A stretch of 64,000 bases of DNA from Janthinobacterium saanense (GTDB lineage Bacteria; Pseudomonadota; Gammaproteobacteria; Burkholderiales; Burkholderiaceae_D), in NCBI RefSeq assembly GCF_014200675.1, contig NZ_JACHCI010000001.1, forward strand, positions 496,001 to 560,000, read 5' to 3'. Positions within the stretch are counted from its first letter, which is position 1, and each line of letters begins with the position of its first letter. This document shows, one piece after another, positions 2,899-23,033 of the stretch. The notes beneath the pieces are model-generated. The model was not told the DNA's origin. It did not search any database and saw only the letters and a list, made by a program, of their open reading frames with translations. Made by a program: the position numbers and the translations under genes.

Positions 2899-2974
2899 GG
2901 TGCTCCAGATGAGTAAATGCTGACTGCATGTTACCGGATTAGGTAAATTGATGGCGGACGAATAAGTATCTTTT

Positions 2975-2999
2975 GCGTAGGGAACATGTTTCCCTGCGC
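2975..2999 (+). promoter_or_regulatory. Hairpin in the queC leader
   Basis: The arms GCGTAGGGAA (2975-2984) and TTCCCTGCGC (2990-2999) pair over 10 bp with one G-T wobble around a CATGT loop, 35 bases before the queC ATG. It has no U-run, so it is not an intrinsic terminator. I could not match it to a preQ1 riboswitch. It lies in the divergent tamA/queC spacer and could be an operator or a leader structure. Confidence 0.4.
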
Positions 3000-3034
3000 A
3001 CTATTGCAACAGATAAACAGAAGGAATAAAAATT

Positions 3035-3748
3035 ATGCTAGCAAGCGACTCCGCACTGGTGCTCTTTAGTGGTGGGCAAGATTCCACCACCTGCCTGGCC
3101 TGGGCCTTGAAACACTATAGCCGAGTGGAAACTATCGGCTTTGACTATGGCCAGCGCCATGCCATCGAGTTGACCGTGCGTCCCGGCTTGCTGCAGCAGA
3201 TACGCGCACAGTCGCCCGAGTGGAACAGCCGCCTGGGTGAAGACCACATGATAGACCTGTCCCTGATTTCCGCCATTTCCGATACGGCCATGACGCAGAA
3301 TGTGGAAATCGTGATGCAGGCAAATGGCTTGCCGAATACTTTCGTGCCTGGCCGTAACCTGCTGTTCATGACGGTGGCCGCTACCGTGGCTTACCGCCGT
3401 GGCTTGACGGTGCTGGTGGGCGGCATGTGCGAGACGGATTTCTCCGGTTACCCGGATTGCCGCGACGACACCATGAAGGCGCTGCAAGTAGCCCTGAACC
3501 TGGGCATGGATACGCGTTTGAAGCTGGAAACGCCGCTGATGTGGCTGGACAAGGCGCAAAGCTGGGATCTGGCCGAAGACCTGGGCGGCCAGCCGCTGGT
3601 CGACCTGATACGCAGCGGCACGCACACCTGCTACCTGGGTGAGCGCGGTGAACTGCATGACTGGGGTTATGGCTGCGGCACTTGCCCGGCTTGCGCGCTG
3701 CGCGCCAACGGTTATCAGCAATATGCGGCGCGCAAGACTGTCAAATAA
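3035..3748 (+). CDS. queC: 7-cyano-7-deazaguanine (preQ0) synthase QueC
   Basis: ATP-dependent conversion of 7-carboxy-7-deazaguanine to preQ0, a step of queuosine biosynthesis. 237 residues, normal for the family. The PP-loop ATP-binding motif SGGQDSTTC lies near residue 12. The zinc-binding cysteine cluster is at the C-terminus ([12 protein letters not shown]), with another Cys at HTCYLGE. The signature [15 protein letters not shown] is present. AAGGAATAAAAATT precedes the ATG and supports the start. It stands alone; no other que gene is in the window. Confidence 0.97.
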
Positions 3749-3995
3749 ATAGTGTCTGTCTGCCTGTAAAGGCCGGGCATAGCCTGGCCAACTACTCTGC
3801 GCGCTGTTCTCCACAGCGCCATCCTGCCCGTCAGCATCGCTCACCAGCATGTGGTCTTTTTAATACAAAATACAGCGTTGCAAGCCCGCCCGCTGTAACG
3901 TACTATCATTTTCTTTGGCGACTGATGGTAGTTGTTGATGAGGCTGCAAGCCTCGTCCGCAGCCCGCTACGCTATCGATTGTTTTTCTGGCCCTC

Positions 3996-6900
3996 ATGCA
4001 TACACGCGCGTTTTTGTCGTGCTTCTCCAAGCCGGTGTCGGACTGGGTGGGACCGCGTCTGCTGGCGACGCTGGTGCTGATGCTGTGCCTGGGACTGAGC
4101 TATGGCGCCTGGCGCAATGCCAGCGAGGTGAGCCGGCAGCAGGTGCAGGCCGATTTCGATTTCCGCGTGCGTGAGCTGGCGGGCAATATCATCAGCCGCA
4201 TGCAAACCTATATCCAGGTGCTGCACGGGGTGCAGGGCTTGTACGCCAGCTCGCAGGAAGTCACGCGCGACGAATTCCATGCCTATCTGGCGCAGCAGCA
4301 GGTGGACTTGCACTTCCCTGGCATCCACGGCATCGGTTATCTGCCGCTGGTGCCTGGCGCGGCGCGCGCCCGGCATGAAGCGCAGATGCGCGCCGAAGGT
4401 TATCCCGCTTATGTGATCCATCCGCCCGGTGAACGCCCTTCGCACGCCCCCGTTACCTATCTGGAACCGGTGAGCGATAGCAATCTGCTGGCCTTCGGTT
4501 ATGACATCCTGTCCGAGCCGGTGCGGCGTGCGGCGCTGGAACAGGCGCGCGATACGGGGCTGGCGGCGATGACGGGCAAGATTCACCTGGTGCAGGATGG
4601 CGATCACAAGGAAGTCTCCGGTTTCCTGATCGTCTTGCCCGTGTATGGCCATGGTCTGGCGCTTGCCGACATGCGGCAGCGCCGCAGCGCCTTGCGCGCC
4701 TGGGTGTTTGCGCCATTTCGCATGAACGATTTGATGGCGGGCGTGGGCGGCGAAGCGTCGCGCCTGCTGGACCTGGAAATCTATGATGGTCCGCAGCTGG
4801 CCGAGGCAGCGCTGATGTACGACAGCCTGCCGGGAACGCTGTCGGCGCAGGCGTCCGGCACGCTGTTGTCGACGCGCCGCATCACTATCGCCGGCCATGC
4901 GTGGACCTTGCGCGTGCGCGCCATGCCTGGCTTCGGCGGCGATGCGCTGGCCAGGCCGCGCGCGGTGGCCGCCGCCGGTGTGTTGATCAGCTTGCTGCTG
5001 GCCCTGTCCAGCTGGATGCTGGCGGCCAGCCGGGCGCGGGCCAGGGCGGCGCTGGCGCGCGCCAGCGAGATGGCGGTGCAGCTGGCGCAGGGCCAGGCCA
5101 GTGTGCTGGCGATGGCGGAAGCGGCGCAACGCAGCCAGGCGATGCTGCGCAACATCCTCGATGCCACCATCGACGGCATCCTGGTCGACAATCTGGCGGG
5201 CCATATTTTCACGTCGAACCGGCGCTTTCGTGATTTATGGCAAGTGCCCGATGCGCTCGACTGGCAGGCGGACGGCGAGGCGCTGGTGCACCATGTGGCA
5301 GGGCAACTGGAGCAGGCCGCGCCCTTCCTGGGGGCGCGTAGCGAAACGCCGCAGGGCCACCGCGAACGGCGCGACGTGCTGACTCTGCGCGACGGCAGGG
5401 TGATCGAACAATATGTGCGCAGCATGCAGCTGGGCAATGAGCATGCGCGGCTGTGGACTTTTCGCGATATCAGCGAACGCAACCAGCTGGAGCGGCGCGA
5501 GACGACGCGCCGCCAGGTACTGGAAATGCTGGCCACGGGCGCGCCGCTGGAAAGGGTGCTGGAAAGCGTGGTGCTGGGCGTGCAGGCCGACCATCCAGCC
5601 ATGCTGTGCAGTATTTTGCTGCTCGACGAGAGCCGTCACCGCCTGGTGCTGGGCGCCGCGCCCAGCCTGCCCGCTTTTTTCAATCTGTCCAGCCACGGCC
5701 ATGACCTCGATACCCTGCAGGGTGTGCATGGCATCGCGGCGCAAGCCGTGCGCAGCGGCCAGCGTATTGCCGTGGGCGACCTGCAGGCCGATGGCGGCCC
5801 GCCCGGCGCCATGGAGCTGGCCTGGCGCGCCCGCTTGCAATCGTGCTGGGCCGAGCCCGTGCGTGGTGGCTCGGGCAAGGTGCTGGGCGTGCTGATGGCT
5901 TACCATCGCCAGCCCATGTTGCCTGGCGCTACCCATCTGGCGCGTTTGGGAGAGGCGGCGCATCTGGCTGGCATGGCGATCGAGCAAGCCCAGGTAGCGC
6001 TGGCCCTGCGCGCGGGCGAAGCGCGTTTCCGCAGCCTGTATGACCATGCGCCGGTGGCCCTGTGGGAACAGGACTGGTCGGCCGTGCGCGATGCACTCGA
6101 TACCCTGGTGCAATCGGGAGTGGGCGACCTGGCCGCGTATTGGCAAGCCCATCCGGGTGAATTGAAACGTTTGGCTGGCCTGGTACGCATCATCGATGCG
6201 AATGGCGCTGCGCTGGCGCAGGTGCGCGCCAATGGCGAAGACCTGCGGCGCGGCGCCCTGAGCCTGGCGCAGAATTTCGATGACGATGCGATGCGCTGTT
6301 TTGGCGATGCCTTGCTGGCGCTGGCGGGCGGCGCCCATCTGTTTGAGTGCGAAGGCAGCTTTGTGCGCCTCGACGGCGCAGCGCGGCAAAACGAATTGAG
6401 CCTGCTGGTGATGCCGGGCCATGCGGACAGCCTGGACTTCGTGATGGTGTCGTCGCTGGACATTACCGAGCGCAAGCGGATGAATGCAGAACTGCTGCAA
6501 CTGGCGACCACCGATTTCCTGACCGGCTTGCCGAACCGCCGGCATTTCATGGCCGCGCTGGAAAATGAACATGCCAGGCTGCAACGCGAACTGGCCAGTA
6601 GCGCCACCGTGCTGATGCTGGACCTTGATCATTTCAAACGGGTCAACGACGAGCATGGTCACGCGGTGGGCGACGCCGTCCTGCGCCACCTGGGCACGTT
6701 GATGTGGCAAGAGCTGCGCAAGGTCGACGTGCCGGGGCGGGTGGGGGGCGAAGAGTTTGCCATTCTGCTGCCCGGCACGGACCTGGCGGCGGCCGCCGTG
6801 TTTGCCGAGCGCTTGCGTCGCCGGGTGGCAGAGAGCGCTTTGACCACCGATGGCGGCGTGCTCATCAACAGCACCGTCAGTATCGGCATGGCGGCCATGG

Positions 6901-7933: not shown

Positions 7934-8563
7934 TCAGCTCTTGCGGCGCAGCATGAAGCCCATCAAGCCCAGGCCGGCCAGCAGCATGCCATAGGTTTCC
8001 GGTTCCGGTACGGCGCTGATGAAGGCGTGGTTGTCCGTCTCGAAAGCGTTTTGTCCGGATGCAAAGGCGACCGAGGTAATCTTCGATCCCGCGCCGGCAA
8101 AGGCATTCACGTACAGGCCGATCGTCTGGTTGCCATTGGGCAAATCGCCGGCCAGGGTGGCCAGTTGCGTGCCCGTCAGCGTCGTGGTGCTGTGATCGGC
8201 AAAGGTGTAGGTGACGCTATTGTAGGTGTCGGGCGAACCCATATAAAAACCGAAATAGCTGAGGCCGCCGCTAAAGGTCGCGGTCACGGGTGTGTGCTGG
8301 TCGGAAGAAACGCCGGCCGACAGGTACATGCTCGTGTCACTAGGAGGCGCGGCATGGTTGACGTCCGTCCCGGTAAACAGCGAGCCGTCCGTGTAGTTGG
8401 CGGGCAGGATGCCGCTGTTGAAGTCGATGGTGGTGGCGCCTGCAACGGCAGACTCCAGCCCCTGACCAGCGACAGCAACACCGCCTGCCGTAAACACAGG
8501 AACGGCACTGGCCGTGCCTGCAACAGCCAGCGTGGCAAAAGCCATGGTAGCGAGTAGTTTCAT
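7934..8563 (-). CDS. PEP-CTERM sorting domain protein
   Basis: 209 residues, secreted. It has an N-terminal signal peptide (MKLLATMAFATLAVAGTASA) and a central Ser/Thr/Gly-rich beta-type domain. The C-terminal sorting signal is VPEPETYGMLLAGLGLMGF followed by LRRKS: PEP motif, hydrophobic segment, basic tail. Such proteins are processed by an exosortase encoded elsewhere and are usually linked to exopolysaccharide or biofilm matrix. GAGGGA before the ATG supports the start, and a terminator follows. The function of the N-terminal domain is unknown. Confidence 0.93.
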   Translation of the reverse strand: MKLLATMAFATLAVAGTASAVPVFTAGGVAVAGQGLESAVAGATTIDFNSGILPANYTDGSLFTGTDVNHAAPPSDTSMYLSAGVSSDQHTPVTATFSGGLSYFGFYMGSPDTYNSVTYTFADHSTTTLTGTQLATLAGDLPNGNQTIGLYVNAFAGAGSKITSVAFASGQNAFETDNHAFISAVPEPETYGMLLAGLGLMGFMLRRKS

Positions 8564-8944
8564 TTTTATTCCCTCAAGTTAATATGTACGCTGCTATTTT
8601 TCAGAGAGATGCCTGTTGCGGGGGGACATGCAGACCGTGCGGCGTACGGGGTTGAGGGGCGTCGCGGTGATGATAGTTGCTTGCAACCAAGCATTATTAA
8701 ATGCAATATTTGAATTCAAAAAACACAACTATATTGCGATGTAATAATAGGTTGTATTGAGAAATATCAAAGCTCGATTATTAGAACTTGCCTACTAAAT
8801 TGATAGCTTGCATTCCTGCCGAGATCGTCTATGGGACGATGCCGTCGCCATCGACTTTGCCGCGCGGAACAGGCGCAAAGAAGGCCGTCATGTAACGGCG
8901 TTTTCGACTATCATGCTAGCCCCAGCCATCGAACGAGCACCGCC
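8564..8944. other. AT-rich divergent spacer
   Basis: 381 bases between divergent genes, strongly AT-rich at about 8690-8800. It holds the perfect 12-base palindrome TTTGAATTCAAA (8709-8720) and a weak inverted pair ACAAC...GTTGT just after it. Promoters for both neighbours must lie here. I find no ORF with a convincing ribosome-binding site. Confidence 0.5.
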
Positions 8945-9457
8945 ATGAGCACCGAGTTTTCCACCTTCCCCGACCCCTCCTCCGAACCAGATAATGACGC
9001 CCCCATCCAGGAACCGCGCCTGTGGGTGGGCAATGGCTGGACGGCCCGCGTGATCAAGAATGAGGAAGATGAAGGCTGGGCCGTGGCCATGATCAAGGAT
9101 GGCGAACCGGAACCAGCCCTGGTAGGGCCGTGGACCATGGGGCGCGACAAGAAAAATCCGAAACCGCTCGACGTCAACGCCTTCAATACGCTGGTCAAGA
9201 CAGCCTCGGAAGTGCTGCGCCGCCATGAGCAGCAGCTGCACGCGCAATTGCACAAGAGCCTGTATGTGGCCACCGACGAGGGCCAGATCAAGGTCATGTT
9301 CGACATCGTGCCCGACGAAGACCACCCCTATGCCGAACTGAGCGCCTACGATGCCGATGGCGAGCAGATTGCCAAGGTACGCACCTCGGCGGCCTTCAAG
9401 TTCAATGCCACGGCAGCGGCCAACTGGATCGAAGGCGGCTACCGCAAGCCCAACTAA
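8945..9457 (+). CDS. Acidic cytoplasmic protein of unknown function
   Basis: 170 residues. I chose the ATG at 8945 (MSTEFSTFPDPSSEPDND) over a longer Arg/Cys-rich upstream frame that looks like translated non-coding DNA. The protein has a disordered acidic N-terminus, then a compact domain with WVGNGWTARVIKNEED, GWAVAMIKDGEPEPALVGPWTMGRD and a C-terminal SAAFKFNATAAANWIEGGYR. No signal peptide or membrane segment. It converges on czcA with a four-base overlap (9454-9457). I do not recognise the family. Confidence 0.8.
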   Translation: MSTEFSTFPDPSSEPDNDAPIQEPRLWVGNGWTARVIKNEEDEGWAVAMIKDGEPEPALVGPWTMGRDKKNPKPLDVNAFNTLVKTASEVLRRHEQQLHAQLHKSLYVATDEGQIKVMFDIVPDEDHPYAELSAYDADGEQIAKVRTSAAFKFNATAAANWIEGGYRKPN

Positions 9458-12400
9458 GTTTCCTTGCCTTGCTTGCGATAAGCCAGCCGGTACAGCAGCG
9501 GCAGCACCAGCAAGGTCAGCACGGTCGATGACAAGATGCCGCCGATCACCACGGTGGCCAGCGGGCGCTGCACTTCGGCGCCCGTGCCGGTAGCGATCGC
9601 CATCGGCACGAAGCCCAGCGAGGCCACCAGCGCCGTCATCAGCACGGGACGCAAGCGGGTCAGCGCGCCTTCGCGCACGGCTGCATCGAGTCCCACGCCC
9701 TGTTCACGCAGCTGGCGGATAAAGGCGAGCATCACCAGACCATTGAGCACGGCCACGCCCGATAGCGCAATGAAGCCCACGGCGGCCGAGATCGACATGG
9801 GGATGTCGCGCAGCCACAGCGCAATGATGCCGCCGGTCAAGGCGAACGGGATGCCGCTAAAAACCAGCAAGCCATCCTTGACATTGCCGAACATGGCAAA
9901 CAGCAACACAAACACCAGGCCCAGCGCCACCGGCACCACCAGTTGCAGCCGCTTGCTTGCCGACTGTAATTGCTCGAACTGGCCGCCCCAGCTGGTCCAG
10001 TAGCCGGCTGGAATTTTGACCTGCGCCTGCAGTTGCTGTTCTGCCTCGGCAACGAACGAGCCGATATCGCGCCCGCGTACATTGGCGCTGATGACGATGC
10101 GGCGCTTGCCATCTTCGCGGCTGATCTGGTTCGGCCCCGGCGCCATCTGCAGGCTGGCCACTTCGCCCAGCGGGATGAAGCGCGCGCGTCCTGCCGTGCT
10201 GGCGTCCTGGGGCAGGGCAATCGGCAAGCGCTGCAATTGTTCCAGGTCGCTGCGCAGGTTTTCCGGCAGGCGCACCACGATATCGAAGCGGCGGTCGCCC
10301 TGAAACACAGTCCCCGCTTGCTGGCCGCCGATGGCGGTGGCGATTGCCGATTGCACGTCAGCAATGTTAAGTCCGTAGCGCGCCGTCTGCTCGCGGTCTA
10401 TCTGCACTGTCAGCATGGGCAGCCCCGTGGTTTGTTCCACTTTGACTTCCGCCGCACCGCTGATGCTGCCGAGCACGCTGGCGATCTTGGCCGCCGTGCC
10501 ATCGAGCACCGCCATATCGTCGCCAAACAGTTTCACGGCCACGTCGCTGCGCACGCCGGAAATGAGTTCATTGAAACGCAGCTGTATCGGCTGCGAAAAC
10601 TCGTAGTTGTTGCCGGGCAGGCTATTGGCCGTGGCCTCGATTTCCGCCAGCAATTGTTTACGCGACTTGTTAGGCTGCGGCCACTGTTCGCGCGGCTTGA
10701 GCATGATGTAGCCATCGGAAATATTCGGCGGCATCGGGTCCGAGGCGATTTCGGCCGTGCCCGTGCGGGCAAACACGCGGGCGATTTCCTTGTGGCTGGC
10801 CATCAGCTTCGTTTCCAGCTGCTGCTGCATGGCCAGCGATTGCGTGAGGCTGGTGCCGGGAATGCGCAGGGCCTGGATGGCAATATCGCCCTCGTTCAGG
10901 TTGGGCACGAATTCGCTGCCCATGCGCGTAGCCAGCAAGCCCGACAGCAGCACGGCGACGGTCGCGAAGACCAGCACCACGGGCGTGTTGGCCATCACCT
11001 TGTCCAGTGCAGGTGCATACCAGCGTTTGGCGGCGCGCATGAGGGCGTTTTCTTTTTCCGCCACCTTGTCGCCGATGAACAGGGCCACGGCGGCAGGAAT
11101 GAAGGTGATCGACAGCAGCATGGCGCCCAGCAGTGCGATGACTACCGTCAAGGCCATCGGCGTAAACATGCGTCCTTCCACGCCCGTTAGCGCGAAAATG
11201 GGCAGGTAGACCACCATGATGATCAACTGGCCGTACAGCAGCGGGCGGCGCGCCTCTTGCGATGCGGCAAACACTTCATGAAAGCGCTCTTGCAAGGTGA
11301 GGGGCCGGCCATGCTTCTCTTGCGCATGCGCAAGGCGGCGCACGCAATTTTCCACGATCACCACGGCGCCATCGATGATGATGCCAAAGTCCAGCGCACC
11401 CAGACTCATCAGGTTGGCGCTGACGTGGTATTGCACCATGCCCGTAAACGTGAACAGCATGGCCAGCGGGATCACCATGGCCGTGATGACGGCTGCGCGA
11501 ATATTGCCCAGGAACAGGAACAGCACGGCGATCACCAGCACCGCGCCTTCCAGCAGGTTTTTCTTGACCGTATTGATGGCCTTGTCGACCAGTACCGTGC
11601 GGTCATAGACGGTGACGGCGTGCACGCCGGCGGGCAAGCTGCGGTTGATTTCCAGCATCTTTTTATCCACCGCCTGCGAAACGGCGCGGCTGTTTTCACC
11701 GATTAGCATAAAGACCGTGCCCAGCACCACTTCGCGGCCGTTTTCCGTGGCCGCGCCCGTGCGCAGTTCGCGCCCGATCAGCACTTCAGCCACGTCGCGG
11801 ATGCGGATGACCACGCCTTGCACATTGGCCACCACGATATTGCCGATATCGCTTTTGGACGCCACTTGCCCAGGCGCCCGTATCAGCAATTGCTCGCCCT
11901 TGCGCTCGATATAGCCGGCGCCCACATTGCTGTTGTTGCGTTCGAGCGCGGTCACGATTTCTTGCAGGTTGATGCCGTAGGCGGCCAGTTTTTCCGGGCT
12001 GGGCGCCACCTGGTATTGCTTGGCGTAACCGCCGATGGCATTGATTTCCGTCACGCCTGTCACGTTGCGCAATTGCGGCTTGATGATCCAGTCCTGGATT
12101 TCGCGCAAATCCGTCGGCGTGTACGGCGTGCCGTCCGGTTTTTTCGCGCCAGCTTCGGTTTCCACCGTCCACAGATAGATTTCACCGAGGCCGGTGGAGA
12201 CGGGGCCCAGCTTCGGCGTGATACCGGCGGGCAAACTTTCCCTGGCTTCCTGCAGGCGCTCGTTGATCATCTGGCGGGCGAAATAAATATTCGTGCCATC
12301 CTTGAAGATCACCGTCACTTGCGACAGGCCGTAGCGCGACAGCGAACGGGTCTGCTCCAGCTTGGGCAAGCCGGCCATGGCCGTCTCGATGGGGAAGGTG

Positions 12401-12594
12401 ATGCGCTGCTCGGTTTCCAGCGGTGAATAGCCGCTGGCCTGGGTGTTGATTTGCACCTGCACATTGGTGATGTCGGGCACGGCGTCGATGGGCAGCTTTT
12501 GATAGCTGTAGATGCCCAGGCCAGCCATGGCGGCCACGGCCAGCATCACCAGCCAGCGCTGGGCGATGGCGAAGCGTATCAAGCGTTCAAACAT
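9454..12594 (-). CDS. czcA: Heavy-metal efflux RND permease CzcA
   Basis: Inner-membrane proton-driven pump that exports divalent metals across both membranes with CzcB and CzcC. 1046 residues, full length, with the usual RND layout: a first membrane helix, a large periplasmic loop, a helix bundle, and the same again. The helix-4 motif DFGIIIDGAVVIVEN has the acidic pattern of the Co/Zn/Cd (HME1) branch rather than the Cu/Ag CusA branch. GAGGAAACCATC precedes the ATG. It is last in the order czcI-czcC-czcB-czcA. Metal specificity is inferred from this motif and the operon order. Confidence 0.95.
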   Translation of the reverse strand: MFERLIRFAIAQRWLVMLAVAAMAGLGIYSYQKLPIDAVPDITNVQVQINTQASGYSPLETEQRITFPIETAMAGLPKLEQTRSLSRYGLSQVTVIFKDGTNIYFARQMINERLQEARESLPAGITPKLGPVSTGLGEIYLWTVETEAGAKKPDGTPYTPTDLREIQDWIIKPQLRNVTGVTEINAIGGYAKQYQVAPSPEKLAAYGINLQEIVTALERNNSNVGAGYIERKGEQLLIRAPGQVASKSDIGNIVVANVQGVVIRIRDVAEVLIGRELRTGAATENGREVVLGTVFMLIGENSRAVSQAVDKKMLEINRSLPAGVHAVTVYDRTVLVDKAINTVKKNLLEGAVLVIAVLFLFLGNIRAAVITAMVIPLAMLFTFTGMVQYHVSANLMSLGALDFGIIIDGAVVIVENCVRRLAHAQEKHGRPLTLQERFHEVFAASQEARRPLLYGQLIIMVVYLPIFALTGVEGRMFTPMALTVVIALLGAMLLSITFIPAAVALFIGDKVAEKENALMRAAKRWYAPALDKVMANTPVVLVFATVAVLLSGLLATRMGSEFVPNLNEGDIAIQALRIPGTSLTQSLAMQQQLETKLMASHKEIARVFARTGTAEIASDPMPPNISDGYIMLKPREQWPQPNKSRKQLLAEIEATANSLPGNNYEFSQPIQLRFNELISGVRSDVAVKLFGDDMAVLDGTAAKIASVLGSISGAAEVKVEQTTGLPMLTVQIDREQTARYGLNIADVQSAIATAIGGQQAGTVFQGDRRFDIVVRLPENLRSDLEQLQRLPIALPQDASTAGRARFIPLGEVASLQMAPGPNQISREDGKRRIVISANVRGRDIGSFVAEAEQQLQAQVKIPAGYWTSWGGQFEQLQSASKRLQLVVPVALGLVFVLLFAMFGNVKDGLLVFSGIPFALTGGIIALWLRDIPMSISAAVGFIALSGVAVLNGLVMLAFIRQLREQGVGLDAAVREGALTRLRPVLMTALVASLGFVPMAIATGTGAEVQRPLATVVIGGILSSTVLTLLVLPLLYRLAYRKQGKET

Positions 12595-12621
12595 GATGGT
12601 TTCCTCGTTTCAACGTTGGAT

Positions 12622-13824
12622 TTAGTGTTCATGGCCGGCGGCATCCTTGCCCAGCTCGGACTTCAAGACAAAGCTGCCCTGCGCCGCGTACGGCGTGCCG
12701 CTCGTTACGCCCTCGGTGATTTCTGTCAGCTTGCCGTCGCTGCGCCCCAGCTTGACGGGGGTGGCCTGGAAACCTTGCTTGATTTTGACGAATACCGTGG
12801 GCTTGTCTTCCACGCTCTGTATCGCCTCGCTGTGTACTGTCACGGCCGCGTCCGCCTCGCCAGACACCACCGCCACCGTCACGAACAGGCCGGGGCGCCA
12901 GGCCATGTCGGGGTTGGACAGGGTGATGCGGGCCTTGGCCGTGCGCGTCTGCTCGCCGATCAGCGCACCGACATAAGTGATCGTTCCCTTGGCGCTGGCG
13001 TCGAAGGCCGACGCCTTCACTTCCGCCTTGCCGCCCACGCGCACGGTGGCCAGGTCTTTGGCCGGCACGGCGATTTCCGCCCACACGGTGGACAGGTCGG
13101 AAATGACAAAGATATTCGCGTCTTCCTTGACCGCTTCACCGAGCGCAATATGTTTCTCCAGTACCATGCCGTCGAAGGGCGCGCGGATTTCATAGCGGTT
13201 CAATGGCCCCTTGCCGCCACCCGTGGCGCCCAGGGCACTGAGTTTCTGGCTGGCATTTTGCACGGCGATTTCCGCTTCGCGCCACGCTTGCTGCGCCTGC
13301 AGATAATCCTGCTCGGCCGAGATTTTTTCATGCCACAGCTTTTCTTCGCGCTCATAGGTGGAGCGGGCCAGCGACAAGCGCCGCTGCGCCGACAGCAAGC
13401 TGCTGCGCTGCTCGGACAATTCCGTGCTGGCGATCACAGCCAGTACCTGCCCCTTCTTTACCAGTTGCCCCAGGTCTGCCTGCACGGCTTCGACCACGCC
13501 AGCCAGGCGCGGCACGACGTGGGCCGTGCGGTCTTCATTGAAACGGATTTCGCCAGGCAATGACACCGTGGTCTTGATGCGCGCCGGGCCCGCTTCGGCG
13601 ATGGTCACGCCGGCCTCCTGTATCTGTGCGGCGCTCAGTTCCAGTCGTCCCTCCACCTCTTCGTGGCTGTGGTCATCTTTCTTTGCGGCTTGCTCCTGCG
13701 CTTTGGCCACAGGCGGCGTTTCTTTGTGACCGCCTGTGCCGAGGATGAGCGCACCCAGCACGATGCCGGCTGCGGCGATGGCGGCGATGGCGATGGTTTG
13801 TTTCTTATTGAGATTCGTCTTCAT
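12622..13824 (-). CDS. czcB: RND efflux periplasmic adaptor CzcB
   Basis: Membrane-fusion protein linking CzcA and CzcC. 400 residues. An N-terminal membrane anchor (about 10-30) is followed by a His/Glu/Asp-rich segment (KKDDHSHEEVEG), possibly metal-binding. Next come a lipoyl-like half motif (PRLAGVVEAVQADLGQLVKKGQ), a coiled-coil hairpin (about 145-205) and the beta-barrel region (RAPFDGMVLEKHIALGEAV). The C-terminus is KDAAGHEH. The ATG follows AAGGAAGACATTC. It lies 27 bases before czcA. Confidence 0.94.
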   Translation of the reverse strand: MKTNLNKKQTIAIAAIAAAGIVLGALILGTGGHKETPPVAKAQEQAAKKDDHSHEEVEGRLELSAAQIQEAGVTIAEAGPARIKTTVSLPGEIRFNEDRTAHVVPRLAGVVEAVQADLGQLVKKGQVLAVIASTELSEQRSSLLSAQRRLSLARSTYEREEKLWHEKISAEQDYLQAQQAWREAEIAVQNASQKLSALGATGGGKGPLNRYEIRAPFDGMVLEKHIALGEAVKEDANIFVISDLSTVWAEIAVPAKDLATVRVGGKAEVKASAFDASAKGTITYVGALIGEQTRTAKARITLSNPDMAWRPGLFVTVAVVSGEADAAVTVHSEAIQSVEDKPTVFVKIKQGFQATPVKLGRSDGKLTEITEGVTSGTPYAAQGSFVLKSELGKDAAGHEH

Positions 13825-13835
13825 GAATGTCTTCC

Positions 13836-15056
13836 TTAGAGGGCGGGCGCGCCGAGCAGGCGTTCGATTTCGGCAGCGGCCTGTTGCGCTTCGGTCAGCG
13901 CGCGCAGGGTCTGGTTTTTGGCTTGCAGCAAGGTGCGTTGGGCGTCGAGCACATCGAGGAAGGCGAATTTGCCAAACTCAAAACCCTTGGTCGCCGCGTC
14001 ATAAGCGCTTTGCGCGCCGGGCAAGATGTCGCGGCGCAAGCTTTCCACGTCGAGCCTGGCCGTGGCCAGGCGTTCGCGGGCGTCAGCCAGCGCCGTTTGC
14101 AGGTCCAAGCTGGCGGCCGCCAGTTCGTCGCTGGCCTTGTCGCTGCGGCGCAGGGCGTCGAGCTGGTTGCCGGCATTGCGGTCGAACAGGGGCAAAGGCA
14201 GGGACAAGCCGATAATCGCCTGGCTGCGTCCCAGCTCTTCCGAGCGTTTCATGCCCAGGCTGACGGTGATATCGGGCGTGGTCCGGCGCTGTTCCAGGTC
14301 CAACATGGCTTTGCGTTGCTCCAGCGTACTGCGTGCCTGGCGCAGGGCAGGCGCGTGCTGCAAACGTGTCGCCAGTTCACTGCTGTCGGGCAAGGGCGGC
14401 AAGTCGTCGAGATTGCCTTCGGCCACGCTGAAGCGGGGCGTGGCATTGCCCCACAGGGCGGCCAGGCGCTTGCGAGCGCTGGCCAGTGCGCCGCGCGCCA
14501 GGTTCAGTTCCAGCCGGACGCTCGCTTCGGCCACGCGGGCGCGCGTTTCTTCGACGGGCGAAGCTTTACCCGCCGTGACCCGGCGCGCCGTGATGTCGCT
14601 TGCGCGCGCAGCCAGTGCTTGCGCGCTATCGGCCAGACGCAACCCTTGCTGCGCAGCCAGCACGTCGATAAAGGCGGTCGTCACCGCCGCACGCGTATCG
14701 GCCTGCTGCATGGCCAGCGCCGCTTCGGCCACGTCTTGCCCCCGCTGCGCCACCTGGGTGCGGGCGCCGCGCTTGCCGCCGAGTTCGATCAGCTGGTTCA
14801 GCTGCACGGTGGTGCTGCGCGTGGCGCGGCGGGTGTCTTCGACCAGGGTTTGCAGTTCGGGATTGGGCAAGGTTTGCGCCTGTTGCAGGGCGCCTCCCTG
14901 GGCTTCCAGTTCATGGCGCGCGGCGGACAAAGTAGGGTTGTTGCTGACCGCCAGGGTTTGGGCAGCCGCCAAGCTCAGTGCGCCGGCAGGTTCTTGCGCG
15001 TGCGCATGCGCGCCGGCCAGCAAGCCGGCGGCCAGTAAAAAAATAGTTCGGTACAT
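13836..15056 (-). CDS. czcC: Outer-membrane efflux channel CzcC (TolC family)
   Basis: TolC-type trimeric channel of the Czc complex. 406 residues from the chosen ATG at 15056, which follows GGAGAATTCG and starts a clean signal peptide (MYRTIFLLAAGLLAGAHAHAQ). A frame extends 21 codons further up but would bury the signal. Two OEP repeats of long Ala/Arg/Glu/Gln-rich helices are visible (LSLAAAQTLAVSNNPTLSAAR; PLPLFDRNAGNQLDALRRSD). It ends ERLLGAPAL. czcB starts 12 bases downstream. Confidence 0.93.
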   Translation of the reverse strand: MYRTIFLLAAGLLAGAHAHAQEPAGALSLAAAQTLAVSNNPTLSAARHELEAQGGALQQAQTLPNPELQTLVEDTRRATRSTTVQLNQLIELGGKRGARTQVAQRGQDVAEAALAMQQADTRAAVTTAFIDVLAAQQGLRLADSAQALAARASDITARRVTAGKASPVEETRARVAEASVRLELNLARGALASARKRLAALWGNATPRFSVAEGNLDDLPPLPDSSELATRLQHAPALRQARSTLEQRKAMLDLEQRRTTPDITVSLGMKRSEELGRSQAIIGLSLPLPLFDRNAGNQLDALRRSDKASDELAAASLDLQTALADARERLATARLDVESLRRDILPGAQSAYDAATKGFEFGKFAFLDVLDAQRTLLQAKNQTLRALTEAQQAAAEIERLLGAPAL

Positions 15057-15162
15057 CGAATTCTCCAAAATCAGGGAAGGAATTCGACGGGACGGACAAA
15101 GCCGCACCCACCAGATCAAGCGTGATGCGTGCCGTTGTCAGAGAGAAAAACGTCCCGTCGGT

Positions 15163-15528
15163 CTAGGCGACCGGGGACCAGTCGGGCCGCTTGGGTCCGT
15201 CAGGGATGTGCGAGATGTAGAACGGTGAAGCGGTGTCGATGGCGTTCGAGGCCGTATCGAACACGGGCATGCTGGCACTGACGGGCAGCCAGGCGTGGCC
15301 TATGCCATGGCAGACATTGCAGTCGCTATGCGGCTGGCCCTTGGCTTGCTTGTCGATGGAAGCCTGCTTGTCAGCCTGCGTGTCGCTGCCTGCCTTGTGC
15401 TGGTGGCTGTGGTGGCCCAGATGCTGGGCCGCCTTGCCTTCTTCGTGTTGGCAATAGGCGCTCGCCGCTGCCCAGGACATCTGGAGCGGAAGCACGAATA
15501 GCAGCAGGAGCACGAAGAATTTTTTCAT
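15163..15528 (-). CDS. czcI: CzcI-like small periplasmic protein of the czc operon
   Basis: 121 residues with a signal peptide (MKKFFVLLLLFVLPLQMSWAAA) followed by AYCQHEE. The mature part is rich in His and Cys: LGHHSHQHKAG, then DCNVCHGIGHAW, suggesting metal binding. Size, the SWAAA-YCQHE junction and position at the head of czcCBA match CzcI, a proposed metal-sensing or regulatory protein of this operon in Cupriavidus. Only 28 bases separate it from the stop of the MORN-C13 gene upstream. A TACAAT on the minus strand in that gap may be a -10 element. The role is inferred from the family. Confidence 0.8.
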   Translation of the reverse strand: MKKFFVLLLLFVLPLQMSWAAASAYCQHEEGKAAQHLGHHSHQHKAGSDTQADKQASIDKQAKGQPHSDCNVCHGIGHAWLPVSASMPVFDTASNAIDTASPFYISHIPDGPKRPDWSPVA

Positions 15529-15556
15529 TGATCCAGGTATTGTAGCCTGTATCCGT

Positions 15557-17110
15557 TTAATGGAGTTGCGCGCGCCACTCCTTCAAATGCGCTTCGATGG
15601 CCTTGCCCCGGTAGATCTGCGGTTCGGAATGGTCTTCCGGCGCGACCACGCCATCTTCCTGGAACTCCGTTTCCTCGCGCGCATTGACCAGCACCCTGGC
15701 CTTGTCGAAGGCCTCGCCAAAGCTGGCGCTGTGCGGCAGGGCATCCTTGAAATACGCTTCGCTGAAGTAGGTGAATTCGTTCTGGTCGTCGCAGCCGAAC
15801 GAGGTGCGGTCGCGCCGCGCCGCTGTGATCACCAGCGTGTGGTCATCTTTCAGGGTATCGATGAAGCCGCCCGCATAGCAGGCCGAGACCAGCACCACTT
15901 TCCAGCGGATGCCGGTCTTTTTCAGCATGCCGGCCAGCTCTTGTGCGGGCAGGCTGCGCAAATCCATGCCGTTTTGCGCCAGCGACAGTTCATGCTCGGG
16001 CGAGCCGTGGCTGGTGAGGAAGAGGAACAGGATATCGTTGTTCTTGTCCATCTTGCCGGCGATGGTCTCCAGGCTGGTGCGGATGCTGGTGATGGTGGCC
16101 ATCGGCTGCTTGGCCACCGTGTTGCGGCTATTGACCAGCATCAAGGAGCGGCCTGCCGTGCCGTAATCGCGGTCGAACTGGCGCTGCACATAATTGGTCT
16201 CGCGGTGGAAGACTTCCTGCGAACCGTCGCCGGCCACGCCCAGCAGATACAGATTGATTTTTTTGGCCGGGTCGCGTGCTGCCAGCTTGCCCAGCGCCTG
16301 GTCGAGCAGGCTGCGCTGGCTATACAGGGCCAGTTCCACATTGTCGCGCGTGAGCTTGTCGCCGGCCGGATCGTCGAGCTGGCCTTCGGTCCAGTTGCCG
16401 CTGTCTTCGCGGCGGCCATCGGCTTGCGCCGTGGCGTAGCGCAGCACGCCCTTGCCATCGAATACGCCATTCTTGAAGCCACCCCGGTATTCGTCGCCAT
16501 CGACCGTGCGCAGCAGACCCTCGCCGTCGAATTTCCAGTCCTTCAGCGGGCCTTCGTAATGGATGCCATCCTTGGTGGTGACGATGACCTTGCCCAGCGG
16601 CTGGCCCTGCACGAACTGGCCTTCAAAGACAGTGCCGTCGGTATCGCTCAGTTTGCCTGCGCCATGCGGTTTCCAGTTCTTGAAGGCGCCCACGAAGCTG
16701 CCGCCATCGGCACCCTCGAAACTGCCGCTGCCTTCGAAGCTACCCTTGCTGAAGCTGCCCGTATAGACTTCGCCCTTGGGCGAGGTGTAGCGCCCCTCGC
16801 CATCGAAGGCGCCCTGGCGGAAGGCGCCCACGTAGTCCACGCCCGAGCTTTGCCGTAAATGGCCCTGGCCGGAAAACACGCCCCGTTCAAAGCCGCCTTC
16901 ATAGTAGGCGCCGCTGGCGTACTCCAGCCGGCCCTGGCCTTGCATCTTGCCGTCGGCCAGCGGGCCGAAATAGCGGCCGCCATCGGCCGTCTCTGCCGCA
17001 GGCGGGCGGGCCGGCGGCGCCGCGCACAGCGGCGGCATGCCCAGGGCGGCAAACAGCAGCAAGCCGGCGAGAGTGTAAGGGCGGAGCGAAGAGCGGCGCG
17101 GTGCGGTCAT
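15557..17110 (-). CDS. Secreted MORN-repeat protein with C13 (legumain-like) peptidase domain
   Basis: 517 residues. The signal peptide runs to about residue 31 (LCAAPPARPP). Eight MORN-type repeats of about 23 residues follow (about 46-230; for example YYEGGFERGVFSGQGHL, EYRGGFKNGVFDGKGVL). A caspase-fold C13 domain covers about 285-500. The His-Cys catalytic dyad is visible: H368 in LTSHGSPEHELSL and C411 in VVLVSACYAGGF, each after a hydrophobic strand as in clan CD peptidases. The N-terminus makes a periplasmic or secreted location likely. It runs in the same direction as czcICBA with only 28 bases to czcI. Substrate and function are unknown. The start lacks a strong SD, but the signal peptide fits. 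Confidence 0.88.
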   Translation of the reverse strand: MTAPRRSSLRPYTLAGLLLFAALGMPPLCAAPPARPPAAETADGGRYFGPLADGKMQGQGRLEYASGAYYEGGFERGVFSGQGHLRQSSGVDYVGAFRQGAFDGEGRYTSPKGEVYTGSFSKGSFEGSGSFEGADGGSFVGAFKNWKPHGAGKLSDTDGTVFEGQFVQGQPLGKVIVTTKDGIHYEGPLKDWKFDGEGLLRTVDGDEYRGGFKNGVFDGKGVLRYATAQADGRREDSGNWTEGQLDDPAGDKLTRDNVELALYSQRSLLDQALGKLAARDPAKKINLYLLGVAGDGSQEVFHRETNYVQRQFDRDYGTAGRSLMLVNSRNTVAKQPMATITSIRTSLETIAGKMDKNNDILFLFLTSHGSPEHELSLAQNGMDLRSLPAQELAGMLKKTGIRWKVVLVSACYAGGFIDTLKDDHTLVITAARRDRTSFGCDDQNEFTYFSEAYFKDALPHSASFGEAFDKARVLVNAREETEFQEDGVVAPEDHSEPQIYRGKAIEAHLKEWRAQLH

Positions 17111-17305
17111 GGGGGCAGGGATGGGGCTGGTCGTCAGAGGGTGCCTAGTCTGCCACTGTCTGGCCCGGCTGGCAAATGTGTGCGCATAGTAATTGTCAGG
17201 ACTTGCCTTTTAGTGGTGCCAAGCGGGAGTTGAACTGCTACTATGCGCTCAATATGTGTACATAAAGCAATATAAGCAGGCAAACAAGTCAGCACAAGGA
17301 TCAGC

Positions 17306-19249
17306 ATGGAAAGTCGTCTCAGCCGTCTCGAAGCCGTTCAAACTGTCTTGCTGGAAATCGGGCAGCGCTCCAGCACGTGCAGCGATATCTCGGAATTCCT
17401 GCAAGCCGTGCATGCGGCGCTGGGGCGCATCATGTACGCGGCCAATTTTTATGTGGCCTTGAGCGACCATGACGACGGCCTGGTGCGCTTTCCGTATTTT
17501 GTCGATGAATTCGATGCATCGCCGTCGCCGGACGCGGGCGTGCGCCTGGCCAGCGCCGCGCAGTCGCCCACGGCCTGGGTGATCGTGAACCGCAAGCAAT
17601 TGGTGATGTCGGCCGGCGACGAGGCCATGCGCGCCATCGATGGCGGCTCCTGGGGCGGCGGCACGGCAGCCGAGCACTGGATAGGCTGCCCGCTGCTGGA
17701 CCAGCAGCACCAGGCGCTGGGCGCCATCGTGATCCAGAGTTATACCGCCGAGCACCGCTTCAGCGATGAAGACCAGGCCCTGTTTGCGCTGATCGCCACC
17801 CATGTCTCGAGCGCGCTGCAAGGCATGCAAAGCATGGACCGGCTGGAAAAAGCGGTGCAGGAGCGCACGGCCTTGCTGGCGCACGAGGTGGCCGAGCGGC
17901 GCCGCGCGGAAAACCTGCAGCATGCGTTGTATGAAATCGCGAATCTGTCGGCGCAAGCCTCCGACGCGGGCACCCTGTACGCACGCTTGCACGCCATCAT
18001 CAGCGAACTGGTGACGGCGAAAAATTTCCTGATCGCCCTGTATCACCCGGACAGCAAGGACATCACGATCCCGTATTTTGTCGATGAAAAAGATGCCCAG
18101 GCGCCCGTCAAGCGCTTTCATTACGGCATCGGCATGAGTTCCTATATCCTGGCGCGCCGCCAAGCCTGTTTGCTCGATGCCGGCAGTTATGCGGCGCTGG
18201 TGGCCAGCGGCGAGATGAACGAGCCGCTGGGCAATGTGGGCATCGCCAGCTGGATGGGCGCGCCCATGCTGTTGGGCGAGCGTGCGTATGGCGTGATCAT
18301 CGTGCAAAGCTACGACGCCTCCGTCGTGTATGGCCAGGCAGAACTGGATGTGCTGGCCTTCATGGCCAGCCATGTTGCGGTGGCAATTGCGCGCATGCAA
18401 GCCGATGCCGCCATGCGCCGGGCCAAGGAAGCGCTGGAAGAACAGAATGCTGCCTTGAACAGCGCTTTGAGCGCGCTCAAGGAAGCGCAGTCGGAACTGG
18501 TACGCCAGGAAAAACTCGCGTCCTTGGGCCGCCTGGTCGCCGGTGTCGCCCATGAAATCAATACGCCGCTGGGCATTTGCGTGACGGCCACCAGCCATCT
18601 GGTGCAGGAACTGAAGCTGACGCGCGAAGACCTGGCCGCCGGCCAGCTCGATGAAGATGGCTTGCAGCAATTTTTTGGCATCATCGACCAGACCTTGCGC
18701 ATCATGACCACCAATACCCAGCGCGCGGCTGCGCTGGTGCGCAGTTTCAAGCAGGTTGCGGTAGATCAGTCCTCGGATGAATTGCGCAGTTTTAATTTAC
18801 GCAAATATCTCGATGAAGTGCTGCTGTCGCTGCAGCCCAAGCTGAAAGGCAAGCCCGTCAAGGTGGAGATCGATTGCGCTGCCGAACTGCATTTGCGCAG
18901 CTATCCGGGCGCCGTCTCGCAGATTGTGACGAATATGGTGGTCAATTCGCTGGTGCATGGTTTTGCGGAAGGCGAACCGGGCAAGATCACGCTCAGCGCC
19001 AGGAGCGAGGGCGACATGCTGGCGCTCGATTACAGCGACGACGGCATGGGCATGGACAGCGCCACCCTGGGCCAGTTGTTTGATCCCTTCTTTACGACAA
19101 AAAGGGGTTCCGGCGGCAGTGGCCTGGGTGCGCATATCTTGTATAACCTGGTGACGGGGCCGCTGGGTGGTACCGTGAATGTGGTCAGTGCACCCGGCAT
19201 GGGCTTGCACTACAAGATCAGATTTCCGTTAGAGCCCAAGAGTGCTTGA
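17306..19249 (+). CDS. GAF-GAF sensor histidine kinase
   Basis: 647 residues, no membrane segment, so probably a soluble sensor kinase. Two GAF domains (about 18-170 and 210-365) share the strand motif IPYFVDE/FPYFVDE and are joined by a helix. A coiled coil (about 372-405) leads to the dimerisation region with the phospho-acceptor H416 in GVAHEINTPLG. The C-terminal ATPase has an N-box (QIVTNMVVNSLVHG), a G1 box (YSDDGMGMD) and DPFFTTKRGSGGSGLG. No response-regulator gene is adjacent. The ATG follows AAGGATCAGC. The signal is unknown. Confidence 0.94.
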   Translation: MESRLSRLEAVQTVLLEIGQRSSTCSDISEFLQAVHAALGRIMYAANFYVALSDHDDGLVRFPYFVDEFDASPSPDAGVRLASAAQSPTAWVIVNRKQLVMSAGDEAMRAIDGGSWGGGTAAEHWIGCPLLDQQHQALGAIVIQSYTAEHRFSDEDQALFALIATHVSSALQGMQSMDRLEKAVQERTALLAHEVAERRRAENLQHALYEIANLSAQASDAGTLYARLHAIISELVTAKNFLIALYHPDSKDITIPYFVDEKDAQAPVKRFHYGIGMSSYILARRQACLLDAGSYAALVASGEMNEPLGNVGIASWMGAPMLLGERAYGVIIVQSYDASVVYGQAELDVLAFMASHVAVAIARMQADAAMRRAKEALEEQNAALNSALSALKEAQSELVRQEKLASLGRLVAGVAHEINTPLGICVTATSHLVQELKLTREDLAAGQLDEDGLQQFFGIIDQTLRIMTTNTQRAAALVRSFKQVAVDQSSDELRSFNLRKYLDEVLLSLQPKLKGKPVKVEIDCAAELHLRSYPGAVSQIVTNMVVNSLVHGFAEGEPGKITLSARSEGDMLALDYSDDGMGMDSATLGQLFDPFFTTKRGSGGSGLGAHILYNLVTGPLGGTVNVVSAPGMGLHYKIRFPLEPKSA

Positions 19250-21090: not shown

Positions 21091-22602
21091 CTAGTCCGGG
21101 AAACGCTGATTGAGCGCCAGCGCCTCATCCAGATTTGCAATCAGCAATTCCACATATTGCGGGTCCAGGTGGCTGCCGCTGACTTCGCGCAGGTAGCTGA
21201 CGACTCTTTCCAAGGGCCAGGCTTCCTTGTAGCAACGTTTGTGCATCAGCGCGTCGAACACGTCGGCGACGGCGGCGATGCGCGCGTATTTGTGGATGTG
21301 CTCGCCAGACAGCCCTTGCGGGTAGCCGCTGCCGTCGAATTTTTCATGGTGCTGGTGGGCGATCACGGCCGCTGCCTTCAACAGCGGGCGCTGCGAGCCG
21401 TCGAGGATGGACATGCCTACCGTTGGGTGCTGCTTCATGATTTCCCATTCGGCCGCGTCGAGCTTGCCCGGTTTCAGCAGCACCGCATCGGGCGTGGAAA
21501 TCTTGCCGATGTCATGCATGGGCGCCGCGTGGCGCAGCACCATGGTTTCTTCCTCGGACATGCCGGACGCCTGGGCCAGCAGCTGGCACACTTCGGCCAT
21601 GCGGCGCACGTGGTTGCCGCCTTCGTGGGAACGCGATTCGACCACGTCGCCCAGGCGCAAGATCAGTTCGGCCTGGGTATCGGTGATTTCCTGGGTCAGC
21701 AAAATGTTGTCGAAGGCAATCGCCACGCCAGAGCAAAATACTTCCAGCAACTGTGCATCGAGTTCCGAGATTTCTTCCACGCCCTTGAGCACCAGCAAAG
21801 ATGCCTTGCCGCTGCTGTTAGGAAAGTAGCCGACATAGGTGTCGCCATGCAGGCGCGAGATTTTATTGCTTTTCGCATCGTCCAGTTGCGACAGCAGGGC
21901 AGGGCTGAGGATGCCGCCGTCCGCTTCATGGTCGCCGATCTGAGCGAGGATTTCATAGTCCTGTTCGCCGGATATCGCACTGGCGCCGCGCAGGCGCAGC
22001 AGCATGCTTGTTTCCAGGCGCAGCAGGGCCACCACTTGCTGCAGCAGGCCGCTGGCGAAGTCGCGCAGGTTGCGTTGCTTGAAGATATGGGCGGAAGCGG
22101 CGATGACGCGCTCCAGGCCTTCGCGGTAATTGAGCTGGGCCAGGCGCGCTTCCTCGACCTTCATGATGTCGCGGTAGGCGCGCAGGGCGGCAAAGGTGGT
22201 GGTAAACAGCTTGGTGCGGTCGAGCTCGGTTTTTTCCTTGTAATCGTTAATGTCGTAATTGACGATCACGCGTTCCTCTGGCGCCTGGCCGGGCTGGCCC
22301 GTGCGCAGCACGATGCGCGTAAAGCGGTTACCCAGTTCTTCGCGCATCCAGCGCGCCACTTCCAGGCCGCTGTCTTCGCGCTCCATCACCACGTCCAGGA
22401 ACACCAGCGCAATATCGCTTTCGCGCGCCAGCACCTGCTTGGCTTCGGCGCCGCTGTAGGCGTGCAGGAAGCTGAGGGCGCGGCCTTCCAGGCGGAAGCG
22501 GCTCAGTGTCAGCTCGGTGATGTCATGGATGTCGGGTTCGTCATCGACGAGCAAGACTTTCCAGGGAGGTAACTTGGGCGATGCTGAAGACAAAAATGAC
22601 AT
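21091..22602 (-). CDS. Response regulator with DUF3369 and HD-GYP phosphodiesterase domains
   Basis: 503 residues from the ATG at 22602; an upstream TTG frame adds 12 residues but is less likely. A receiver domain (about 15-140) has the acidic pocket VDDEPD and phospho-acceptor D70 in LVFLDVVME. A GAF-like DUF3369 region follows (about 150-320). The C-terminal HD-GYP domain has MHDIGKI and the signature HHEKFDGSGYPQGLSG, so it should hydrolyse cyclic di-GMP. The upstream GAF-GAF kinase is not adjacent, so the cognate kinase is unknown. Together with the GGDEF protein at 3996-7040 it gives the window both synthesis and degradation of cyclic di-GMP. Confidence 0.93.
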   Translation of the reverse strand: MSFLSSASPKLPPWKVLLVDDEPDIHDITELTLSRFRLEGRALSFLHAYSGAEAKQVLARESDIALVFLDVVMEREDSGLEVARWMREELGNRFTRIVLRTGQPGQAPEERVIVNYDINDYKEKTELDRTKLFTTTFAALRAYRDIMKVEEARLAQLNYREGLERVIAASAHIFKQRNLRDFASGLLQQVVALLRLETSMLLRLRGASAISGEQDYEILAQIGDHEADGGILSPALLSQLDDAKSNKISRLHGDTYVGYFPNSSGKASLLVLKGVEEISELDAQLLEVFCSGVAIAFDNILLTQEITDTQAELILRLGDVVESRSHEGGNHVRRMAEVCQLLAQASGMSEEETMVLRHAAPMHDIGKISTPDAVLLKPGKLDAAEWEIMKQHPTVGMSILDGSQRPLLKAAAVIAHQHHEKFDGSGYPQGLSGEHIHKYARIAAVADVFDALMHKRCYKEAWPLERVVSYLREVSGSHLDPQYVELLIANLDEALALNQRFPD

Positions 22603-23033
22603 GAGGGCGAGTTCCGCTAAAAGGCATAACTGACGCAATGCAAGACGCCACGCGCCAGGAATTCCTGTGCGCCACTACCGGCGTTGCGCGTTTTTCGGGC
22701 GCATTTTGTCGATTGTAGACTGACAGCTAAGTATTAACAACAAGCAATAATGATTGTCGTATTTCATGTGGCGACCGTATCAAAAATGCTAAATCGCTAG
22801 CATATTTAGTTTATCGCTTAGGCAACTATATTTTCAAGACAATACTTTGTTTTAATCAATATTGCCAACGAAACTGTAAAAAAAGGCGCGTGGAGGGATG
22901 ATGTAGCCTCCGCAAAAAGATCGTAACAAGGTATGAATTTTGCAAAAAACCGTGGGTGATGCGTTTATAGTGAAGCGTAGCTGAAAGAACAGACGTGGCC
23001 TGCAAGCCATCGAATTGCTTGAAAGGGATCATC
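22603..23033. other. AT-rich divergent spacer
   Basis: 431 bases between the HD-GYP regulator and the DUF3016 gene. The stretch 22720-22980 is distinctly AT-rich and holds nested small inverted repeats such as TGCTAAATCGCTAGCA with a following ATTTAG, plus GGAGG...CCTCC near 22892-22911. Divergent promoters are expected. No credible ORF. Confidence 0.5.

Follow-up and report, generated by a model that had tools for sequence, protein, structure and literature searches.

The window (the whole 64,000-nucleotide stretch of Janthinobacterium saanense DNA that was analysed) carries on its minus strand a gene, 15557..17110, that starts with ATG and encodes a 517-residue MORN-repeat/Peptidase_C13 protein; its open reading frame and translation, the Pfam matches and the purifying selection described below all support it as a gene. 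A gap of 28 bases (15529-15556) separates it from czcI (15163..15528, minus strand), which was recognised by the NCBIfam model NF045614 (E 4.4e-31; 108 bits vs. a cut-off of 100) and is a neighbour rather than a demonstrated part of the protease system. The genes czcC (13836-15119) and czcB (12622-13824), both assigned by family matches, and czcA (9454-12594; ACR_tran, 1148 bits) then follow in the same direction on the minus strand. The orientation and the 28-base gap described in an earlier note on this DNA were thus confirmed, but the view that the protease heads the czcICBA operon is an interpretation and not an observation. On the other side lies a divergent GAF/HisKA/HATPase sensor kinase gene (17306..19249, plus strand), identified by family matches and by comparison of the loci of relatives, which we used as the anchor gene of the locus. 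A domain scan placed a DUF3369/HD_5 protein with a receiver-like start further along (21091-22638, minus strand), and both this gene and the sensor kinase gene are conserved near the locus in relatives. A PEP-CTERM protein (7934-8563, minus strand; PF07589, 8e-10) is encoded about 0.9 kb past czcA and also occurs near the locus in several relatives.

The protein begins with a stretch resembling an export signal (about residues 1-28; 17027..17110, minus strand), as judged by hydropathy, by-eye reading and orthologue alignment. It contains the hydrophobic stretch RSSLRPYTLAGLLLFAALGMPPLCAA, and by eye the first 30 residues resemble an export signal that lacks a lipobox. The protein is therefore probably exported, in line with the signal peptide claimed previously. 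Eight MORN repeats of 23 residues follow (residues 47-230; 16421..16972, minus strand), defined by the repeat register, Pfam, the confidence of the structural model and matches to MORN1; the units are contiguous and give way to a degenerate stretch. The C-terminal part is a C13 (caspase/legumain-fold) peptidase domain (about residues 256-500; 15611..16345, minus strand), supported by Pfam, by the alignment with legumain and by fold matches of a low-confidence model. Pfam detected both domains above their cut-offs (MORN, E 1.1e-16; Peptidase_C13, E 2.6e-27), and the claimed fusion of eight repeats of about 23 residues to a C13 domain therefore stands.

In the full-length model the MORN part is confident (pLDDT 77-96 in ten-residue blocks over residues 41-240) and matches solved MORN1 chains. 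With its tandem units of about 23 residues and its predicted beta-hairpin fold, the array is that of a MORN repeat protein. Although the earlier note linked such repeats to membrane or lipid binding, this link is weak: in the excerpted account of TbMORN1 (PMC7725318), no evidence of membrane or lipid-vesicle binding was found, and MORN arrays need not bind lipid. The same excerpts describe MORN1 proteins as dimerising via their C-terminal MORN repeats (PMC7725318).

With 96.4 bits against a cut-off of 22.8 for the Peptidase_C13 profile, the C-terminal domain belongs to the C13 (legumain) family. PF01650 was matched by all of 20 diverse C13 domains, each searched alone at E 0.001, and 8 of these 20 also matched the caspase model. 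A profile built from the 20 domains matched legumain chains at E 2.7e-8 (HMMER), and this alignment put His368 (codon 16007..16009, minus strand) and Cys411 (codon 15878..15880, minus strand) in register with the legumain catalytic pair, in agreement with the dyad proposed earlier. His368 lies within LTSHG and Cys411 within SACYAG, and both assignments rest on motif and alignments. A C13 alignment of 92 rows (89 distinct sequences), more than a third of which are close orthologues from Janthinobacterium, has His368 in 91 rows and Cys411 in 90; where a residue is missing, the row has a gap because the reading frame is split, as in two loci, L138 and L171. Note that in these two loci the MORN-C13 gene is broken into two frames at the peptidase domain, possibly through decay or sequencing error. 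The protein is not a member of the EACC1-associated caspase family (NF047832; 30.9 bits vs. a cut-off of 140), it matched none of the PADLOC families at E 0.01, and a scan of viral contigs with the C13 alignment found no relatives.

Since the C13 half of the full-length model was poor (blocks of pLDDT 31-77), the domain was predicted separately, giving a mean pLDDT of 62.5 and a pTM of 0.69; both models were built on six sequences, drawn from the window and from related loci. Foldseek matched this low-confidence model to procaspase-1 (1.3e-5) and legumain (3.4e-5), with loose superpositions for the caspases and legumains among the matches listed (TM by query length 0.35-0.47). VIA-align ranked metacaspase-4 at the top (Z 12.4, rmsd 3.8, 197 residues aligned), and gave Z 11.2, rmsd 3.8 and 189 aligned residues for legumain 4awb_A. 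The scores all lie close together, so the predicted fold class, caspase-hemoglobinase, is clear and the nearest family is not distinguished by structure. Both the C13 profile and the modelled fold thus bear out the peptidase call.

The resemblance to legumain extends to part of the substrate pocket. In addition to the Pfam family, the fold and the catalytic His and Cys, the two proteins share the serine at legumain position 216, whose equivalent, Ser437, is kept in all 90 ungapped rows. The asparagine-specific legumains (AEP) combine Ser216 with Asp231 in their S1 pocket; here the Ser is kept and the Asp is replaced by Glu451, and the 92 rows show Glu in 40, Arg in 36, Lys in 10, another residue in 4 and a gap in 2. 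According to the part of the legumain literature consulted (PMC4357240), Arg44, His45, Ser216 and Asp231 underlie the Asn/Asp preference. Given that Asp231 gives way to Glu in the window protein and, in many relatives, to Arg or Lys, this preference is doubtful for the MORN-C13 protein. Arg44 and His45 fall outside the HMMER alignment, and mapping them by eye via legumain and GPI8 motifs gives more than one register, so this mapping carries no weight here. The window protein also differs from legumain in its N-terminal MORN array and in a post-peptidase stretch too short for the legumain C-terminal domain. Bacterial MORN-metacaspase fusions, as far as the consulted portion of PMC4933709 describes them, likewise have their MORN repeats ahead of a cysteine peptidase of caspase fold, but they combine one to four repeats with a metacaspase rather than eight with a C13 domain.

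Comparison with 10 orthologues put pN/pS at 0.10-0.39 in the C13 domain and at 0.14-0.68 in the MORN part, where genome G015 gave the highest value. Purifying selection acts on both domains, and the low values in the C13 domain indicate that the gene is real.

We then compared the locus across 40 Janthinobacterium genomes (37 plus G149, G240 and G283). The protease gene is present in 33 of them, and in 32 of these 33 czcI lies directly downstream. The remaining genome, G003, has an intact protease gene between the same two flanking genes and lacks czcICBA there; two czcA-like genes, 78% identical, lie elsewhere in this genome. Conversely, G001, G022 and G027 have no protease gene, and in these czcI and czcC directly adjoin the divergent kinase gene (in G001 the remaining czc genes are on a second contig). 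G026 has neither set between the kinase and the downstream gene. Three of the seven protease-less genomes could not be judged, because the kinase runs off the contig end (G034) or has no match at E 1e-100 (G013 and G021). The 37 judgeable genomes thus divide into 32 with both, one with the protease only, three with czc only and one with neither, an insignificant association (Fisher p 0.21) even when relatedness is ignored. In a kinase tree of 34 rows, made by a quick method, rooted on G026 and leaving out three short rows and two duplicates, G003 falls among the genomes having both sets (SH-aLRT 89), which argues that czcICBA was probably lost there and the protease gene retained. The three czc-only genomes fall into a single clade (99), and G026 sits on a long branch of unsure position. 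At this locus, therefore, either set can be found without the other, which is not the conserved presence expected of a member of the czcICBA operon. In G283 (locus L052), whose MORN-C13 gene is intact, the matches to czcI and to czcC are each spread over two reading frames, which may reflect frameshifts or assembly errors.

The gap between the two genes, 8 to 42 bases long across loci, contains a conserved element. The -10-like hexamer TACAAT (15539..15544, minus strand) is present in all 29 loci compared, with its end 8-12 bases from the czcI ATG; the distance is exactly 10 bases in 28, including the window, and 11 in L031. Its flanks vary: the 24 bases preceding it come in 25 versions and the 10 bases following it in 17. 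Note that most of these loci are close kin and not independent, so the weight lies on the diverged ones, namely the window, L027-L029 and L031. The hexamer was absent from the 40 bases before the protease gene (0/30) and from about 60 bases before czcC (0/32). In L016 the protease stop codon runs into the element and leaves it intact. The three czc-only genomes carry TATAAT or TAAAAT at a distance of 9 bases from the czcI ATG. The conservation of TACAAT, together with these hexamers in the protease-less genomes, suggests that czcI is probably driven by its own promoter, for which TACAAT is the candidate.

The element was seen only through the comparison between species. A scan of positions 8000-18000 for sigma-70 promoters and terminators gave 3 promoter-like and 11 terminator-like sites (2.3 and 9.9 expected) and placed neither kind within the gap. 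As no terminator-like site lies there, read-through or co-transcription into czcI is possible, and as TACAAT has no clear -35 consensus box, an activator may be needed at czcI. By eye, no Shine-Dalgarno sequence is apparent before czcI; if transcription started about 7 bases downstream of TACAAT, the czcI message may be nearly leaderless. The protease gene has a promoter-like candidate of its own, a conserved block TTGCCA ... CAGACT (17148..17175, minus strand) found by aligning 30 upstream regions, with a weak match to the consensus.

A comparable arrangement is the czcN-czcICBA region of Cupriavidus metallidurans, for which the portions of PMC9045368 and PMC10127602 consulted describe a gene of unknown function, czcN, upstream of czcI, and promoters belonging to czcI itself. 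The main czcI starts given there lie 31, 53 and 97 bp upstream; the -10-like box of the window, by contrast, stops 10 bases short of the ATG. The consulted part of PMC9045368 also reports read-through transcripts that extend from czcN into czcI.

C13 genes are widespread. At E 0.001, a match was found in 97 of the 294 genomes sampled from the family, in 30 of the 274 from the class and in 46 of the 299 from the phylum, and one above the cut-off in 89, 24 and 43 genomes, respectively; these samples overlap and each includes the genome of the window. Among relatives both MORN-C13 and MORN-less C13 proteins occur (with MORN counted by motif), and the fusions are spread over several families of the class, a lipoprotein-like signal being present in some. 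Pfam confirmed both domains in all seven of the other MORN-C13 proteins scanned. Of 69 MORN-C13 rows, 14 have a lipobox-like motif ahead of the repeats; the Janthinobacterium rows, counted among the 69, have none, and at least the L163 motif is a chance match. The number of repeats differs between relatives. The layout of a MORN array followed by C13 is shared by a MORN-Peptidase_C13 protein of Collimonas (53% identity in the best tblastn segment, 56% in the alignment) and by one encoded on a P. aeruginosa plasmid (CP109682.1), which is annotated 'peptidase C13' and is 39% identical over residues 43-515.

None of 39 MORN-C13 loci outside the genus, of which 37 are distinct when two pairs are taken as duplicates, matched the czcI, czcC or czcB of the window at E 1e-5 in the fetched flanks. 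These loci, seven of them shorter than 12 kb, were chosen mostly from the best matches and not at random, and the plasmid copy lies outside the set. At three of the 39 there is an RND pump with about 24% identity to czcA, and two of these three are one and the same locus. Clustering of the neighbours of C13 genes revealed gene order that is shared within a genus or family; note that the automatic choice of ORFs masked some C13 genes under overlapping frames (e.g. L206, L210 and L213). Loci L206-L215 (family f185) hold MORN-C13 genes, most with lipoprotein-like signals, near genes that by eye resemble lrgA/lrgB, ubiX and mpl. One loose neighbour cluster joined sensor-kinase-type proteins from six loci (L126, L138, L148, L156, L164 and L165), including the Janthinobacterium kinase. 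The family scan covered its L126 and Janthinobacterium members, and the cluster was provisionally taken to reflect signalling domains that these proteins have in common. In L126 a GAF/HisKA/receiver/Hpt hybrid kinase gene (43-4026, plus strand) lies directly upstream of a MORN-less C13 gene, on the same strand and 3 bases apart, so that a sensor kinase gene adjoins the C13 gene both there and in Janthinobacterium.

These results bear directly on the metal link put forward in the earlier note. In that scheme a protease of the czc system, co-transcribed with czcICBA, would cut CzcI, CzcC or metal-damaged envelope proteins. The shared direction, a 28-base gap without a terminator-like site and the adjacency in 32 of the 33 protease-bearing genomes all fit such a protease. 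We nevertheless consider it decidedly unlikely, since czcICBA occurs without the gene in three genomes and the gene without czcICBA in a fourth, the two sets are not significantly associated within the genus, no czcI, czcC or czcB match accompanies the gene at the 39 loci outside it, and a conserved -10-like hexamer stands before czcI. The note proposed checking whether the gene stays next to czcI in related genomes: it does in all but one of the protease-bearing Janthinobacterium genomes and does not at the 39 loci outside the genus. By the note's reasoning the link would be chance if homologues lay mostly away from czc genes and a promoter or terminator separated the two; the homologues at the 39 loci do lie away, and a promoter-like hexamer in 29 of 29 loci points to such a separation, although no terminator-like site was seen. 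The metal link is thus unsupported. The fact that MORN-C13 genes are common in related bacteria and lie beside czc in one genus only makes the link look like neighbourhood and not function, and the position is most simply explained by inherited gene order within that genus. A later recruitment of the Janthinobacterium protease to metal stress, in which read-through from the protease promoter would add to czcICBA expression, zinc clearance by CzcCBA would keep a zinc-sensitive protease active and the protease would trim CzcI or metal-damaged envelope proteins, is in our view extremely improbable.

We consider it likely instead that the gene encodes a cysteine endopeptidase (clan CD, family C13) that is exported to the periplasm, uses its MORN repeats as a platform, cuts envelope proteins and acts independently of czcICBA. 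This reading builds on the observed domains, dyad alignment, fold class, selection and separability from czc. After export to the periplasm, the eight repeats would form an elongated beta-hairpin platform binding a protein partner, a substrate or another copy of the protein, and would present the bound protein to the C-terminal His368/Cys411 domain. This domain would then cut or process an envelope protein, with a putative effect on envelope integrity, and the gene itself would be an independent one that in Janthinobacterium came by chance to lie between the sensor kinase gene and czcICBA. Alternatively, the enzyme could be a transpeptidase or ligase of the GPI8 or asparaginyl-ligase type, joining or anchoring envelope proteins rather than degrading them. 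It belongs to the same fold family, and a GPI transamidase subunit is among the fold matches (8imy_K, E 7.4e-4; 8imx_K, E 2.0e-3); since caspases and legumains outrank this subunit, no substrate signal was identified and the legumain S1 Asp231 is not kept, a ligase seems unlikely. That the C13 domain is inactive and the MORN array the working part would accord with the repeat-mediated dimerisation of MORN1 (consulted excerpts of PMC7725318). However, the His and Cys are kept in every ungapped row of the 92 and the C13 domain is under purifying selection, which makes a purely structural role very unlikely.

In support of the periplasmic endopeptidase, the lipobox-like motifs found in some MORN-C13 rows fit an envelope location for proteins of this kind. 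An envelope role for C13 peptidases also fits the phenotype of Abrp, the C13 peptidase of Acinetobacter baumannii, which, like the window protein, is bacterial. In the portions of three reviews consulted (PMC11615727, PMC9223528 and PMC8003822), strains that have lost it are described as less susceptible to tigecycline and other drugs and as altered in membrane permeability, the reviews disagreeing on the direction of the permeability change. The MORN-C13 protein could perhaps have a role in envelope integrity such as these sources report for Abrp. A. baumannii records contain a C13 protein, which we infer to be Abrp, that is 39% identical over residues 261-511 and in which no MORN part was matched. 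In our literature search, Abrp, known to us via the reviews, was the only bacterial C13 peptidase with a reported phenotype, and no functional study of the MORN-C13 architecture was found. P. aeruginosa PA4016 is a protein that we take to be of the MORN-C13 kind. The search for it led to a study (PMC3406104) whose consulted part describes an attenuation caused by one insertion and not reproduced with a second allele.

The MORN-C13 protein is conserved, but it is an ordinary representative of an architecture that is widespread and little studied. The value of the finding is mostly corrective: a short conserved gap in one genus can hold a separate promoter and join two units that are gained and lost independently. 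Since bacterial MORN-C13 proteins occur in several families with their catalytic residues kept, they offer a reasonable starting point for learning what a caspase-fold peptidase of the envelope cuts.
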